64,000 nucleotides of DNA, from positions 3,286,001-3,350,000 of the forward strand of contig OZ014424.1 of the NCBI GenBank assembly GCA_963965975.1. The letters are read 5' to 3'. A program made the translations under genes and the position numbers. The number at the start of each line of letters is the position of its first letter. Within the stretch, counting starts at the first letter, position 1. This DNA comes from Xestospongia bergquistia (taxonomy: Eukaryota; Porifera; Demospongiae; Haplosclerida; Petrosiidae). A model generated the notes under the pieces. The model did no database searches. It was not told where the DNA came from and saw only the letters and a program-made list of their open reading frames with translations. Below, one piece after another: positions 3,806-54,210 of this stretch.

Positions 3806-3809
3806 TTAA

Positions 3810-4027
3810 AGGGTAACTGAAATGTGTATTTTGAAATTTTTGAAACTTGGTTATTTGTTAAATAATAATATGATAACATGTAAACCTTACTCCTTTTCTT
3901 GAAATGGAACTTCCTTTTGAAATAAAACGAAGTCAAATCTTGCTCAATCATAAGTCAGCCATCTTCTTCCTGTTTAAGCAGCAAAATCAGCGAAACGCAT
4001 TATGACATCACAAGATGAACGATGAAC
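3810..4027 (+). repeat. Left terminal inverted repeat of the Kolobok-like element
   Basis: About 218 bp, matching the reverse complement of 6462-6678 with few differences. It includes the ATG at 4015 of the plus-strand gene. The family's ends usually hold the promoter; that role is inferred here. Confidence 0.92.
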
Positions 4028-4770
4028 GCATGCAAATCGATAGTTTCGCACCTGTTATAGAGATGGATGCACTTGCTAATGAAGAAACTAGTGGATCTGA
4101 ACAATATTCAAGTCCAATGCAGGATGATTATAGTGAAGATGAAGATTCTTTTGCTGGTATTGTTTTACCTTATTTATATGAATCAAGTGATAGCTAAGCA
4201 TCCAGTAATAGTAGTAGTAGTGAAGACTTGGAGCTGTCCTCAGAAAGACTTTTAAACTTTAATTGGTATAAACATAAATGAGGAATAACGTTAGTAATAA
4301 ATATTATATGTTGATTATAGGTGTGCATGTAGCCACTGTGTAAGTATGAGTAATTCAAAGAAGTGCATTTGCTGCCAAGAAATTATGAAAATGAATGAGA
4401 AAATGGAAGCTGAGATACCTGAACTCCTATGTATTACTGACCTTCCAAGATTTCATGCTGTTTGCTTGAATGTGTGGACATTACAAACTGCGTATTACCA
4501 ATACCAACAAGAATATGGGTCTGCAACTTTACCATCAGCTATTAATGAGTGAGTGTTATTTGTCCAAAGATCATGCTATTATATATACTGGACATTCTTT
4601 TTGCTTCATCTAGACATTACAGGTACATAGCATATCACCAGTTGACCAGATGGGTTATGGGATGGCTAGGCAGACATATTAGAGTGGTATTACTTGCTTG
4701 TGCAGTTAACAAAATAGGAGAAACACTCCCCTCTGCAAACTATGTTGGATTTAAATATCTTAATCTTTAA
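4015..4770 (+). pseudogene. P2X7 ballast-domain-like protein, three exons, one in-frame stop
   Basis: Exons 4015-4265, 4321-4548 and 4614-4770 join in phase across introns of 55 and 65 bp with GT..AG borders, giving about 211 codons. The N-terminus is acidic and Ser-rich. Then come a WCAC..C cluster (spanning the first junction), KKCICCQEI, CITDLPRFHAVCLN, RYIAYHQLTRW..GWLGR, VLLACAV and a final NYVGFK. The order and spacing match the intracellular C-terminal 'ballast' domain of vertebrate P2X7, with its WCQCGSC, LCCRK, CIT, AYR..W and Y.GFK motifs. That domain is zinc-binding and binds guanine nucleotide in P2X7. No channel segments are present, so this is the stand-alone domain. A TAA at 4195-4197 interrupts exon 1, so this copy is probably dead unless translation starts again downstream. 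The start codon lies inside the element's inverted end. Function in the transposon is unknown. Confidence 0.75.
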
Positions 4771-4878
4771 ACTTAATCAATAATAATAAAACATAGTGTA
4801 GTATGCTATGTGATTGTTATATTATTGAGGTATATTGTAGAGCATTGTACAATTTAATACTAACATTAAACAATAAAT

Positions 4879-5058
4879 TTATTTGCCAAATCTGCTTTCG
4901 TGCTGACTAATAGCTTCGCTTTTGTCAGGATAGCACAAAGGTGGTGGGGGTCTGAAAGTGTTAACACATCTTTCAGATGGCTCTTGCATTTTTTCCAATA
5001 TCATTGAGAAAAGATTTTTTACATATTGTATAGTTGTCTGACAGCCTAACATTAACAT
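4879..5058 (-). CDS. Possible last exon of the minus-strand transposon gene
   Basis: An open minus-strand frame reads through MLMLGCQTTIQYVKNLFSM, ILEKMQEPSERCV, a PPPPLCYPDKSEAI segment and ends HESRFGK at a stop at 4879. It lies just inside the hAT insertion, whose upstream side continues at 5695. With the hAT element ignored, the frame is closed a few codons upstream, so it would have to be a separate exon. It ends 108 bp from the convergent plus-strand gene. No domain recognised. Confidence 0.4.
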   Translation of the reverse strand: MLMLGCQTTIQYVKNLFSMILEKMQEPSERCVNTFRPPPPLCYPDKSEAISQHESRFGK

Positions 5059-5066
5059 GTTGTGAC

Positions 5067-5686
5067 CAGACATGGGGCAAGCATTTACTGAAGTGCTTGA
5101 AGCACAACTTAAAGCATTCATAAAAGAGCTTAAGCACAAGCACAAGCATTTATGCTTCTAAAAAATAAGTGCTTGAAGCACAAATTCAAGCACTTAAAAA
5201 ATGCTTGAAGCACAAGCACAAGCATTTTTGACAAAAAATGTCCTTCAAATAAACAATTCTTTTATCTAAGTCAACTTTTAAAATACTTCTTGTTAGATCG
5301 TATAAACATTAGTTATAGAATATAGTATCTACCAGTCCGCATCTCTCTGGCCTAAAGATCTTGCTTGCCACACTAAACAGCTGCTTTACTACATAAAAAG
5401 ATACAGGAACTCCCAACACAATTGTAGTTATAGTTGCTAATGATGATAAACAGACTGATAGCAAAAGAGTATTAATAGATGTGCTAAGTGCACAAAGAAC
5501 TTGCAGCCATTGTGCTTAAAAGTGCTTATAAAGTGCTTTAAAGCACTAATGCTATAAAGTGCTTAAGCACAAGCACAAGCATAAATGCTTATATATAATA
5601 AATGCTTGAAAGCACCTCCAAGCATTCCAAAAAATGTGCTTAAAGTGCTTTCAAGCACAAGCACTCAAGTGCTTGCCCCATGTCTG
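5067..5686. mobile_element. hAT deletion derivative nested in the Kolobok-like element
   Basis: The ends are CAGACATGGGGCAAGCA and its inverted partner TGCTTGCCCCATGTCTG. They are flanked by an identical 8-bp target duplication, GTTGTGAC at 5059-5066 and 5687-5694. The 8-bp duplication and CAG start are standard for hAT. Both flanks inside the ends are packed with AAGCAC/GTGCTT words (5100-5230 and 5505-5670), which look like subterminal binding-site arrays. The middle keeps a scrap of hAT transposase (listed separately). Confidence 0.92.
5335..5440 (-). pseudogene. hAT transposase C-terminal dimerisation fragment
   Basis: The minus strand encodes VLGVPVSFYVVKQLFSVASK followed by IFRPERCGLVDT. 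This is the conserved hAT C-terminal motif (usual form: A..SAPVERLFS.AG.IFRPERC). Only about 35 codons survive. It ties the nested element to autonomous hAT elements of the ZBED type. Confidence 0.82.
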
Positions 5687-5812
5687 GTTGTGACAGCTTT
5701 AACACAACTGAAATCACATACCTTTTGATTTCATTTTTTGCTTTTTCTTACTGCTTGATAGTACTATTGCAATGGAAGTACAATATGAACAAAATCAGTA
5801 TAAGTATACACT

Positions 5813-6422
5813 TCAAAACATGCCTGGTAGAGGATCTGATACAAATGAACATGATTCATATCCAGGCTCTTCAGATAAATTCGAATGTCCCACTCTTAGC
5901 TGAGCTAATTCTTCATCTGTAGCCATACTGGACTCACTCTCATCATCAGCCAAATTGGACTCTTCATCTGATACATCTTCTACTAGCATTTTCACAACCT
6001 AAATCAATTCAAACAGTTATAATCCAGTAGTGATAGCTCTTATATATACCTTCAAATTCTCTCTTCTTTTGTAACGTTCATGTCTACTTGTTGATTTTGA
6101 CTTCTTTAAATGTGATGCCTCCTTAGTTTGATATTCGCTAACTGGTCTCTTGAAGACTGTCGGGATAGCATCAGATTTCAGTTTTATTCTTTTAGATAAC
6201 CCTAGACTAGCAACTACAACTACATCAGGCTGGAAACAGTCTTCAGTAAAGTGGCAACTACACAAAAATGAGTACTTGGTTGGTCCTAACCACTCGTCCC
6301 TGGTTCTCTTTCCTTGCTCAGTCCATTTTTTTACTAAGTACTGGATCTTGAGGGAATGAAAATAGACTCACTCCATCCTTATTAGTATTACCACAACTGA
6401 AAGCAACACATCTCTTAGGCAT
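5813..6422 (-). pseudogene. THAP-domain protein of the Kolobok-like element
   Basis: From the ATG at 6422-6420 the minus strand reads MPKRCVAFSCGNTNKDGVSL, then FSFPQDP.LSKK. After a one-base shift in a run of seven A (about 6332-6326) it continues with WTEQGKRTRDEWLGPTKYSF, LCSCHFTEDCF and KLKSDAIPTVF. This is a complete THAP zinc finger (C-x4-C, invariant Trp, C-x2-H, final AVPTVF-like box), known to bind DNA and common in P-element and Kolobok transposons. A donor at about 6054 (AAG|GTATAT) and an acceptor at about 6004 (TTTAG|GTTGTG) join in phase to an acidic exon (DVSDEESNLADDESESS) that ends in a stop at 5813-5815. The A-run shift breaks the finger in this copy. Confidence 0.8.
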
Positions 6423-6461
6423 TTTCCAATAGTTCACACTTCTTACCAGGTGTTGAATAGT

Positions 6462-6678
6462 GTTCATCGTTCATCTTGTGATGTCATAATGCGTTTCACC
6501 GATTTTGCTGCTTAAACAGGAAGAAGATGGCTGACTTGTGATTGAACAAGTTTTGACTTCGCTTTATTTCAAAAGAAAGTTCCATTTCAAGAAAAGAAGT
6601 AAGGTTTACATGTTATCATATTATTTTTTAACAAATAACCAAGTTTCAAAATTTCAAAATACGCATTTCAGTTACCCT
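6462..6678 (-). repeat. Right terminal inverted repeat of the Kolobok-like element
   Basis: Reverse-complement partner of 3810-4027. Read on the minus strand, its inner edge also contains ATGAACGATGAAC, followed at once by a possible splice donor (CACCTG|GTAAGA). A THAP transcript could therefore begin with the same Met-Asn-Asp-Glu leader as the opposite gene, or use the internal ATG at 6422. Confidence 0.92.
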
Positions 6679-9600
6679 TTAAATTAAAGAGTTTCAAGAT
6701 TTAATGGAAATGAACTTAATAAACTGTCAATTGCAGTTTATTGAGTTATACTCTCTGAGTCCTTTAACCAAGGCAGTTTACATTATGAACTTCTCTCAAT
6801 AATGCAAACATTCTAAATTGCTTAAAATAAAGAGTTTACAGGGTTAACGCAAACGAACTTAACAAACTGTCAATTCCAGTTTATTGAGTTATACTCTCTG
6901 AGTCCTTTAATCTAAGAAGTTTACATTATAAACTTCACTCAATAGTCAAAACCTTCTAAACTCTTTAAGTTAAAGTCTTTAGAGCGTTAATGCTTACCAA
7001 CTTAATAAACTGTCTGTGGGTCCCTTAATCTAAGCAGTTTACATTATAAACTTCTCTCAATAGTCTAAAACTTCTAAATCCTTAAAATAAAGGCTTTGGA
7101 GCGTTAATACAAACAATCTTATTAAACTGTCAGTAGCATATTATTGAGTCAGTCTCTCTCAGGGCTTTTATATAAGCAGTTTACATTATGAACTTCACTC
7201 AATAGTCTAAACATTCTAAATTCTTTAAATTTAACAATTTTGAGCGTTCATGCAAAACAACTTAATCAACAGTCAATAGCAGTTTATTGAGTTAGACTCT
7301 TTGAGTCCTGTCATCTAAGAAGTCTATATTACGAACATCAATCAATTGTTTAACCCTTTTCAACTCTTTAAATTAATGAGTTTACAGGGTTAACGCAAAA
7401 CAACTTAATAAACTATCAATAGCAATTTATTTAGTTAATCCATTTAAGGCATTTAGACTAAGTAGTTTACATTGTAAACTTCACTCAATAGTCTAAACCT
7501 TCTAAACAGTTGAAATTAAAGATTTTAGAGGGTTAATGCAAAGCAGCTTAATAAACTGTTAATTCTAGTTTATTTAGTTAGTCTCCTTCCGTTTTCAGTC
7601 TAAGCAGTGTACATTATAAACTTCACTCAATAGTCTAAACCTTGTAAACTCTTTAAAATAAAGAGTTTAGAGGGTTATTGCAAACCAACTTAATAAACTG
7701 TTAATTACAGTTTAATTAGTTAGTCTCTTTAAGGCCTTTAGTCTAAGCAGTTTATATTATAAACTTCAATCAATGGTCTAAACCTTTTAAACCCTTTAAC
7801 TTAAATAGTTTAGTTCGTTAATGCAAACCAACTTAATAAACTGTTCATTGAAATTTATTCAGTTAGTCTTTTTAAGTCCATTAGTATAAACATTTTACAT
7901 TACAAATTTAATTCAATAGTCTAAACCTTCTACACTTTTTAAATTAAAGGCTTTAGAGCGTTATTGCAAGCCAACCTTTAAAAAAGTTAATAGATGTTTC
8001 TTTAATTAGTCTCTTTGTGTCCTTTAGTCTAAGCATCTTACATTTTCAACTACACAAAGTAGTCTAAACTTTCTAAATTCTTTAAATTAAAGACTTTAGA
8101 GCGTTAATGCAAACCAAATTAAAGAGTTTATAGGGTTAATGCAAAGCAGGTTAATAAACTGTTAATTCTAGTTTAGTTACTTAGTCCCCTTCAGTTTTCA
8201 GTCTAAGTAGTGTACATTATAAACTTCACTCAATAGTCTAAAACTTCTAAACTCTTCAAAATTAATAAACTGTTAATATCAGTTTGTTTAGTTAGTCCCA
8301 TTAAGTCCTATAGACTGAGCAGTTTACTTTGTAAAATTCACTCAATAGTCTAAACCTTCTTAATTCAAAAACTGTAGAGCGTTAATGCAAACCAACTTAC
8401 CGTCTGTTAATGGCAGTTTACTTATTTAGTCCCATTAAGTCCTTTAGACTGAGCAGTTCACTTTAAGAACTTCACTCAATAGTCTAAGACTTCTAAAGTC
8501 TTTAAATTAAAGACTTCAGACCGTTAATGAAAACAAAATTACTAAACTGTTAATAGCAGTTTATTTAGTTAGTCCCATTAAATCCTTCAGCTGAGCAGTT
8601 TACTTTATAAACTTCACTCAATAGTCTAAACCTTCTAAAGTCTTTCAATTAAAGACTTTAGAGTGTTAATGCAAACCAACTTTCTAAACTGTTAATAGCA
8701 GTTTATTTAGTTAGTCCCATTAAGTCCTTTAGACTGAGCAGTTTACTTTATAAACTTCACTCAAAAGCTAAAACCTTCTAAACTCTTTAAATTAAAGATT
8801 TTATGGTGTTAATGCAAACCAACATACTAAACTGTTAATAGCAGTTTATTTAGTTAGTCCCATTAAGTCCTTTAGACTGAGCAGTTTACTTTATTAACTT
8901 CACTTAATAGTCTAAGGCTTTAAAACTCTTTAAATTAAAGAAATTGACAGTTAATGGAAACCAATTTACTAAACTATTAATAGCAGTTTATATACTCAGT
9001 CCCATTAAGTCCTTTAGACTGAGCAGTTTGCTTTATAAACTTCACTCAATAGTCTAAACCTTCTAAAGTCTTTAAATTAAAGAAATTAGACCGTTTATGC
9101 CAACCAACTAACTAAACTGTTAATAGCACTTTATTTAGTTAGTCCCATTAAGTCCTTTAGACTGAGCAGTTTACTTTATAAACTTCACTCAATAGTCTAA
9201 ACCTTCTAAAGTCTTTAAATTAAAGACTTTAGAGTGTTAATGCAAACCAACTTACTAAACTGTTCACAGCAGCTTATTTAGTTAGTCCCACAGAGTCCTT
9301 TAAACTGAGCAGTTTCCTTTATAAAATTCACTCAATAGTCTAAACCTTCTAAACTCTTTAAATTAAAGACTTTAGAGCGTTAATGCAAACCAACATACTA
9401 AACTGTTAATAGCAGTTTATTTAATTAGTCCCATTAAGTCCTTTAGACTGAGCAGTTTACTTTATAAAATTCACTCAATAGTGTAAAACTTACAAAGTCT
9501 TTAAATTAAAGGTTTTAGAGCGTTAATGCAAACCAACTTACTTAACCATTAGTAGCAGCTTGTTTAGTTAGTCCCATTAACTCCTTTAGACTGAGCAGTT

Positions 9601-41428: not shown

Positions 41429-41851
41429 GAGTATGCAACGGATATTCGGACAACAGGTATATTCGGACACTCGTTTCTGTGAATTCGTGAACGACAGGTG
41501 CTGGTTGTGTCATTGTGCTATAGTCAATGGTCATCTTCTTTATTATTGCAAATGAGAGCCGTCGCTGTTGTGTTTCTCTCGGCCACGAAGAACTTTTGTG
41601 CGACATTTCGGAAACGCCCATATTCGGAAAAATTACTTCATGCTCGTATTTCACCATTATCTTTCCCTTGTCACTCGATTTTAATTAAAAAGTTGCTTTC
41701 TATGTAAACTATAGTTTTTGCACTATCTATAAATCATAATATTATAAGTATAATTATAGTAGAAACTAGAAAGGAGATAAAGTCTGAGTCAGTGCAAGAT
41801 GCATCCTGTTAGCACCTCCACCCACTGGTCATCATCACGTGTTGTGACCTT
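41429..41851 (+). repeat. Left terminal inverted repeat of the pogo-like element
   Basis: Mirror of 45219-45640 over about 422 bp with very few differences. The outer part holds two GGATATTCGGACA-like or GTATATTCGGACA-like words in tandem, a probable transposase binding pair (inference). Confidence 0.94.
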
Positions 41852-41878
41852 GTTGACAAAGGTATAGAAAGTTTTAGT

Positions 41879-42976
41879 TTGATATTTTTAAAATACCTTT
41901 TTGTATATAGAAAGATGCTGTCTTTAAAGGAAAGAGTTTTTTCATCAGCTGTTCTCGCGGCACCTGCTCCTTCTCAGTCTGGACCGTTGAGACCCTCTCA
42001 GTATAAAAACTGGAAAGAAGAGAGACTCTACACGGTGTATGAAGCAGTAAAAAACAATGAAATGTCACTTAGAGAGGCAGTGGAAGTTTATGGTGTGCCA
42101 AAGAGCACAGTGCATGATCGTGTGACTGGTCGTGTATTGTTCGGTGCTCGGAGTGGCCCACCAAGGCTTCTTTCGGACACGGAAGAAGAACTTGTTTCTT
42201 TTCTGAAGCATTGTGCTTTTATTGGTTATCCTAGATCAAAGCAAGATATAATGACACTTGTTCAAAATGCCGTCACTAGAAAAGGTCATACTGGAGTTGT
42301 TAGTCATGGTTGGTGGGATTCCTTTAGAAAAAGGCATTCAGAAATATGCCTCAGGAAACCAGAACCTCTTTCTCATGCCCGTGTTATATGTACCTCCCCT
42401 GATATCCTCAACAAATATTTCGACTTACTTGAACAAACTCTGGAAGATAACAACTTGTTACAAAAACCATGTCAAATCTTTAACTGTGATGAGTCTGGGT
42501 TTCCACTTGACCCAGCACCTCCAAAGGTAGCAGTCATTAAAGGACAGAAGCACCCATACAATGTATCCAGTGGTGACAAAGCACAGATTACTGTACTCGC
42601 CTGCTGTAGTGCTGGACGCTATGTTATTCCACCCTTTATAATCTTCGATCGGAAAACCTTGAAACCAGGAATGACAGAAGGAGAAGTACCCGGTTCAATT
42701 TACGGTCTTTCTGCAAAAGGATGGATTGATGCGGAATTGTTTGACCTTTGGTGTCAACATCACTTTCTATTGCATGCCCCACCAGTACGTCCTCTTTTAC
42801 TTCTTGTCGACGGACATTCATCTCATTATTCTCCAAGTGTCATAAACAGAGCTGTAGAGGAAGGAGTCATAATGTTTTGTCTTCCCCCTCATTCAACCCA
42901 TATTACCCAACCGTTGGACAGGGGGTGTTTTTTAGCATTAAAAAGATCATGGAGAGAAGAGTGCTATAATTATTGA
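41879..42976 (+). CDS. Pogo-like transposase, main open frame, cut by an in-frame stop
   Basis: A 365-codon frame; the start may be the Met at codon 1 or at codon 13 (MLSLKERVFSS). Residues about 40-85 form a psq-type helix-turn-helix (YKNWKEERLYTVYEAV..MSLREAVEVYGVPKST). Residues about 95-165 form a CENP-B/Tc5-like second helix-turn-helix (GWWDSFRKRH). Then comes the DDE core: first Asp in NCDESGFPLD (about 204), second in LLLLVDGHSSHYS (about 311), third in LPPHSTHITQPLDRGCF (about 347). The frame hits TGA at 42974-42976 but goes on in the same frame with the family's C-terminus, so this copy is disabled unless read through. The enzyme family cuts and pastes the element at TA sites in the nucleus. 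Confidence 0.93.
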   Translation: MIFLKYLFVYRKMLSLKERVFSSAVLAAPAPSQSGPLRPSQYKNWKEERLYTVYEAVKNNEMSLREAVEVYGVPKSTVHDRVTGRVLFGARSGPPRLLSDTEEELVSFLKHCAFIGYPRSKQDIMTLVQNAVTRKGHTGVVSHGWWDSFRKRHSEICLRKPEPLSHARVICTSPDILNKYFDLLEQTLEDNNLLQKPCQIFNCDESGFPLDPAPPKVAVIKGQKHPYNVSSGDKAQITVLACCSAGRYVIPPFIIFDRKTLKPGMTEGEVPGSIYGLSAKGWIDAELFDLWCQHHFLLHAPPVRPLLLLVDGHSSHYSPSVINRAVEEGVIMFCLPPHSTHITQPLDRGCFLALKRSWREECYNY

Positions 42977-53020: not shown

Positions 53021-54210
53021 GAATCCAGAGACGATTACTACAAGAGAACTCTCTTACTTTCCAAACCGCATTTGAAACAGCGCAAGCTATGGAAATAGTA
53101 GCACGAGACATCAACGATATTAGGCAAGACCTTACAACCGACCATCATCATCGTCACTACAGGAACCAGTTCATTTGGTTAGGAAACATACTAAAACCCC
53201 AACATGTCATCGTTGTGGACAATATTTGGGTCATGTTATTGACGCCCAAGGTCTACATCCAGCCACTTCTAAAATAAAAGCCATTAGTCAAGCCCCAGCT
53301 CCCTCAAACGCTACTGAGCTGAAATCATTCTTGGGACTCTTAAACTACTATCACAAGTTTCTCCCAAACCTCTCTACTACTTTAGCTCCGTTACATAAAC
53401 TGTTACACAAAAACATGCCTTGGACATGGTCAGAAGAACAAGACACTGCATTTAAGGAAGCTAAATCACTCCTTCAGTCTTCATCCTTATTAGTACACTA
53501 CGATCGTAACAAACCATTACTACTGTCATGTGACGCTTCACCTTACGGTCTAGGCGCAGTCCTAAGTCACCAAATGCCTGACGGAACCGAGAAACCCATT
53601 ACGTTCATTTCTCGCACTTTAAACGTAGCTGAAAAGAAGTATTCACAGCTAGAAAAAGAAGCTCTTGCTATTGTATTCGCTGTGCGAAAGTTACATCACT
53701 ATCTCTATGGACTACATTTCACTCTCTACTCTGATACCTACTGGATGAATCACGTCAAATTCCAATTCTCGCATCATCCCGAATTCAGAGATGGGCACTT
53801 ACACTTGCAGCATATTCCTACACTATTAAACACAAACCAGGCACTCAATTGGCCAATGCAGATGCTTTAAGTAGATTACCCCTACTGGTAACACTACCAT
53901 ACGTACCCATCCCAGGTGATATTATATTATTGCTTAACCATTTGTCTGAATCAGTCATACAGGCTAATCACATCGAGACTTGGATAGACAAAGATCCACT
54001 ACTTTCATGTATTCGACATTCAATTCAAACAGCTTCGACATTATCCGATTCAGAGACTGATCTTACTATTCGCCCGTACATGCAACGTCACTCTGAACTC
54101 AGTGTGATTGACGGATGGATTCTCTGGGGATCGAGAGTTGTCATTCCCTCTGAAGGTACTATTCCACTTTCTATTCTACTTGAGTTCGGTCTTTCTCAAT
54201 TCTTCTATTC
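53021..54210 (+). mobile_element. Ty3/Gypsy retrotransposon fossil, partial
   Basis: A fragment of a Ty3/Gypsy-family LTR element inserted at the end of the duplicated block. Recognisable parts in order are the tail of Gag with a zinc-knuckle remnant (about 53030-53230), the end of reverse transcriptase with the RNase H domain (about 53230-53730), and the connection towards the integrase (about 53840-54200). Most of the reverse transcriptase and integrase are absent, and no LTR was found on either side. It is broken, with several breaks; the parts are still easily read, so it is not among the oldest sequences here. Confidence 0.9.

Follow-up and report, generated by a model that had tools for sequence, protein, structure and literature searches.

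A damaged nonautonomous Kolobok element, very probably of the Kol0 type, with a relic of a P2X7 ballast-like gene in Xestospongia bergquistia

The window analysed here, a stretch of 64,000 nucleotides from the genome of the sponge Xestospongia bergquistia, contains an element in which a gene resembling the ballast domain of the P2X7 receptor lies opposite a THAP gene. The locus raises the question of whether ballast-like domains are a regular part of DNA transposons, and whether such an element could have been the source of the receptor domain, as a first-pass annotation of the sequence proposed. Very probably the element descends from a Kolobok DNA transposon of the Kol0 type, of which it is an old, nonautonomous copy; the Kol0 label is taken from its ballast-like gene, KolX. 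The family is a new nonautonomous Kol0-type Kolobok family, the inference on P2X7 was already in print in 2022, and the window copy itself is ordinary, damaged and internally deleted.

Boundaries, target site and copies of the element

The element is flanked by TTAA at positions 3806–3809 (left) and 6679–6682 (right) and has inverted ends of about 218 bp, which are 94–95% complementary. The two TTAA duplications set the element body at 3810–6678, exactly as in the first-pass annotation, the TTAA duplications and 218-bp ends of which were likewise recovered. The left terminal inverted repeat (3810–4027, plus strand) starts with AGGGTAACTG, and the right one occupies 6462–6678 on the minus strand. 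All 11 two-ended copies of the family had TTAA on both sides and AG..CT termini, and AGGGTAACTG was the left end of every one of them. The right end CAGTTACCCT was present in nine of the 11, C1c having one base changed and C7c one base missing. Elements of the piggyBac group also duplicate TTAA and have CCC..GGG termini; they were ruled out by the termini found here (AGGG..CCCT). The TTAA duplication and the AG..CT termini (11/11) are instead those of Kolobok, defined in the accessible part of PMC9587614 by 5'-RR and YY-3' termini. An empty site was reconstructed for the sister copy C2b: when its flanks were joined with one TTAA they aligned to a 143-bp satellite without gaps over 304 of 304 columns, while joining them with two TTAA required a 4-bp gap. 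A search of the window against Rfam gave no match.

The genome searched comprised 146 Mb in 21 contigs. Twelve loci were read, the 11 two-ended copies and a relative, C10 (C10:3074319–3077724). The 28 terminal-repeat matches include five further partial copies outside these 12, two of which adjoin coding matches, KolX at C3:6223328 and THAP at C1:17006053. The search for other TTAA-flanked elements with both genes, which had been suggested for this locus, thus returned such copies and also further families. Two copies, C7:1903389–1905381 (C7a) and C7:1908244–1910236 (C7b), are inverted relative to each other and identical at 2001 of 2001 bases, and their flanks differ, which points to recent mobility or homogenisation.

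The window copy is interrupted by a nested 620-bp hAT-like nonautonomous element (5067–5686), absent from the first-pass annotation. It is bordered by the 8-bp duplication GTTGTGAC at 5059–5066 on the left and 5687–5694 on the right, and it has at least 31 other matching places in the genome.

The KolX relic and the P2X7 ballast domain

The ballast-like gene lies on the plus strand in three exons, with splice sites placed by eye. Exon 1 (4015–4265) has its start, also inferred by eye, inside the inverted repeat, and in the window copy it contains a stop codon at 4195–4197. Exon 2 (4321–4548) carries the cysteines of the WC.C..C, CC and CIT motifs, and exon 3 (4614–4770) the AY pair, a C572-like cysteine and YVGFK. 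When exons 2 and 3 were joined with their letters unaltered, they matched PF20478 (P2RX7_C) at 31.5 bits against a cut-off of 23.5. Of the exons taken singly, exon 2 gave nothing and exon 3 gave 19.0 bits, below the same cut-off. The three-exon ballast-like gene claimed from the letters alone was therefore confirmed once spliced, and the profile comparison recommended for it led to PF20478 and, in the PDB, to P2X7 only.

It is highly improbable that the likeness is a convergent spacing of cysteines and not homology. In favour of convergence are the single exons below the Pfam cut-off, a phmmer search of the PDB with the single window KolX protein that found nothing at E up to 10, and the outcome of fold prediction: AlphaFold modelled KolX twice, each time at low confidence (pLDDT 57 and 42) and from an alignment with misplaced exon-2 tails, and Foldseek, run with the first of these models, found no P2X7. 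Against it, all five unaltered KolX proteins of the same genome matched PF20478 (best E 4.9e-14), and a profile built of these five spliced proteins had four matches among 177,635 PDB sequences, all four of them P2X7 (best E 2.8e-6). These matches led to the rejection of convergence. An eight-row profile, three rows of which had edited letters, reached E 2.9e-7 over chain residues 476–594. Compared by eye with the P2X7 ballast (PF20478; PDB 6u9v), the seven zinc-binding cysteine positions are all cysteine in the window KolX, and the match also extends beyond the cysteines to R546-, A549- and Y550-like residues and the YxGFK end. Several P2X7 positions in contact with GDP differ in KolX; in the window copy the R578-like position is among them (by eye).

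Unlike P2X7, KolX has no P2X channel part. The sole P2X (PF00864) locus detected in the genome, C7:8116584–8118439, had no KolX match near it, and a P2X channel domain joined to a ballast was not found in this genome. The window copy cannot be the source of P2X7, because it is a decayed, nonautonomous relic. Among viral contigs, 143 stretches fitted a KolX pattern and none was confirmed. At C5:6893240–6893683 a KolX match with an open frame of 163 aa may represent a KolX that is still intact or has been domesticated.

In the accessible part of Kojima and Bao 2022 (PMC9587614), KolX is described as a second protein of Kol0-lineage Kolobok elements with the P2X7 ballast fold, resembling P2X7 residues 476–595; P2X7 is proposed to derive from a KolX fusion, and Nanor is regarded as a likely domesticated KolX. 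This proposal supersedes the earlier statement that the origin of the P2X7 ballast is unclear. The claim that ballast-like domains ride on DNA transposons is supported for TTAA (Kolobok) elements of several families.

The transposase strand, its deletions and gene order

The remains of the transposase are on the minus strand. The THAP-domain exon (6044–6467) has a frameshift in the window copy and is followed by a second exon with an acidic stretch (5816–6010) and by the C-terminal tail (4879–5066), the DDE core being deleted at about 5025/5026. The unaltered frame 6020–6367 matched PF05485 at 35.1 bits (cut-off 23.9), and a query spanning the frameshift gave E 2e-15. The THAP finger noticed on the opposite strand is thus present as a relic; that both genes of the element, KolX and THAP, are broken in this copy had gone unmentioned. 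A THAP domain is part of Kolobok transposases, and here THAP and DDE stand on the same strand in C10, in the element at C1:21456035–21458926 and in element L042, the DDE core missing from the window copy.

In C10, THAP, DDE pieces and the C-terminus lie on one strand and a partial KolX on the other. C10 is itself incomplete: little of either terminal repeat remains, KolX lacks a part, and there are stops. In each of the other 11 copies an internal deletion has taken away the DDE core, and at least three such deletions can be told apart relative to C10. The window copy and C2a share one join (about 1.95 kb lost), and C7a, C7b, C7c, C1a, C1b, C1c, C3 and C4 a second (about 2.04 kb lost, including KolX exon 3); C2b has a third, with about 2.7 kb lost.

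A 170-aa frame of L042 led to two further loci, C10 and C1:21456035–21458926. In L042 a single TTAA-flanked 207-bp inverted repeat encloses KolX, THAP and the beginning of the DDE region. The C1 element, which belongs to a second family, has THAP and DDE and no significant KolX match. Kolobok elements encode a DDE transposase with a C/DxxH signature; pieces with GDG..DSPG, TDR and TSSxE were found in both C10 and the C1 element, and DIWH in the latter, the candidate catalytic residues being assigned by eye. Singly, the transposase pieces had no Pfam match over the cut-off; those of the C1 element, when joined, matched PF20700 at 30.3 bits (cut-off 26.5, E 2.8e-7). In the same second family, elements L012 and L022 contain THAP, KolX and, between them, only C-terminal transposase pieces, and their start letters TTAAAGGGTAACAGA are common to them and the C1 element. 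Among five other elements with KolX and THAP, transposase pieces were found in L012, L021 (a C-terminal piece) and L022, and none in L015 and L024. The contents of C10, L042, the C1 element and L012/L022 suggest that all three parts were present in the ancestor; loss of the DDE core occurred more than once. None of the copies and relatives examined was both intact and autonomous. Searching directly for the Kol0 transposase with PF20700 was discarded as an approach: it gave two adjacent matches, at C1:24686923–24687899, a transposase relic in which tblastn with KolX and THAP queries found nothing.

For the gene order, 92 KolX rows were collapsed by hand to 59 places and 64 THAP rows to 47; the weak KolX row C13:2999464 was omitted, and the partial copies C3:6223328 and C1:17006053 were counted outside the family. 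THAP lies within 4.5 kb of KolX at 26 places, and at all 26 the nearest pair is arranged tail to tail. Twelve of these are in the element's own family and 14 elsewhere, where 0.1 would be expected by chance. Two further KolX/THAP pairings, both spanning C7a and C7b, are not convergent. Eight of the 14 non-family pairs were examined at least partly, and TTAA-flanked inverted repeats were present in L012, L015, L022, L024 and L042 and not seen in L011, L013 and L021. Together with L009, L010, L016 and L017, in which KolX lies in such repeats and no THAP was detected, this makes nine of the only 16 KolX loci examined outside the family.

These counts bear on the idea that a single transposon copy accidentally picked up the KolX-like gene from the host, the gene being otherwise unconnected with the family. 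The idea could draw on the broken state of KolX in the 12 copies read and on the C1 element, where THAP and DDE occur without a significant KolX match; it is scarcely credible beside the 12 family copies, the 14 further convergent pairs and the nine loci within repeats, and it was refuted by the further KolX/THAP families.

State of the genes and relation to known systems

None of the 12 copies read has an unbroken KolX: stops, frameshifts or the absence of exon 3 disrupt it in every one. Eight of the 12 have an open THAP exon, among them C2b, which is matched only to residue 121 and has a stop in its longer match. Between families, six KolX pairs had dN of 0.29–0.43; two of them had dS of 2.2 and 2.9, giving dN/dS of 0.15 and 0.14, and the other four were past saturation. 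Within other families dN/dS was 0.39–0.80 in seven pairs, indicating little constraint, and undefined in one more. The between-family comparison, at dS near saturation, supports the view that KolX would have been under purifying selection over long times. Most likely KolX served as an accessory of transposition, a putative biochemical role that it no longer serves in the family of the window copy.

In the autonomous ancestor, long inverted repeats would have enclosed two genes arranged tail to tail: KolX, presumably a ballast-like zinc-cysteine protein, read from one end, and a THAP and DDE transposase from the other. As the alignment to C10 shows, an internal deletion of about 2 kb removed the DDE core and kept both ends and both gene starts. 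The derivative would then have moved by cut-and-paste into TTAA sites by means of a transposase made elsewhere, with the THAP domain presumably serving to bind it to the repeats. The hAT-like insertion and point mutations are later damage to the window copy.

KP elements damp P elements by way of a shortened protein, and the deletion derivatives could similarly have been kept for a short DDE-less THAP protein which, by occupying the repeats, holds the full transposase in check. The THAP exon open in eight of 12 copies against KolX broken in 12 of 12 would fit this, as would the deletion of the window copy and C2a, after which the C-terminal tail is in frame with the THAP-side sequence. We nevertheless consider it decidedly unlikely: in the element's family the pooled pN/pS of THAP (0.52) is barely below that of the dead KolX (0.55), which gives no hint that the short THAP protein is under selection, and the THAP of the window copy is frameshifted. 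An old nonautonomous Kol0-type copy remains the preferred reading. In a more general scenario, which we regard as unlikely, separate deletions would have made several Kolobok families of this genome DDE-less with both gene starts kept, and a short THAP protein, alone or together with KolX, could influence the remaining transposase in trans, as a brake or a helper encoded by the elements themselves.

Kapitonov and Jurka are reportedly to be credited alongside Kojima and Bao 2022 for Kol0-lineage Kolobok transposons with KolX. The family resembles these in its TTAA, its 5'-RR..YY-3' termini, the DDE transposase of its relatives and its ballast-like KolX, and differs in being nonautonomous, in the dead KolX of the 12 copies read and in the nested element of the window copy. 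In the literature searched, the word KolX occurred only in PMC9587614, and in the accessible part of that paper no statement of the tail-to-tail gene order shown here was seen. THAP and DDE have been described from Xenopus Kolobok transposases in the accessible part of PMC6004289, the main text of which does not contain the word KolX. The Xenopus elements share with the present one a THAP with an AVPTIF-type box (here AIPTVF), TTAA and AG termini, but they have long intact transposase genes and measure 6.8–13.9 kb (PMC6004289).

With this genome there is further confirmation that Kolobok elements carry P2X7-like ballast domains, in several families and with one gene order. The results are also a warning that many of the 'P2X7-like' or ZCD genes of animals could in fact belong to transposons. 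In the accessible part of Rump et al. 2020 (PMC7016195), ballast (ZCD) proteins are reported across animals and treated as genes, one or few (<10) per species without large expansion; words starting with 'transpos' are absent from its main text. The ZCD/NANOR-like proteins described there are similarly short and have the same cysteine domain, while this genome has 59 KolX-match places, many inside transposons, and it is this difference in number that prompts the warning. The same source (PMC7016195) reports an Ixodes protein that combines a ZCD with a 'TAHP' domain; if TAHP stands for THAP, this protein would fit a mispredicted Kolobok.

The 143-bp satellite is present in about 231 copies at window positions 7033–40116 and forms the right flank of the element; it also adjoins C2b, which is inserted within it, and C10, thus three of the 12 loci. 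At 41813–42976 the window has a 387-aa open frame with DDE_1 and HTH_psq, the pairing of a pogo/Tigger-like transposase, and at 53124–53867 RT_RNaseH domains in an open frame mark a piece of a retrotransposon, probably a Gypsy-like one.
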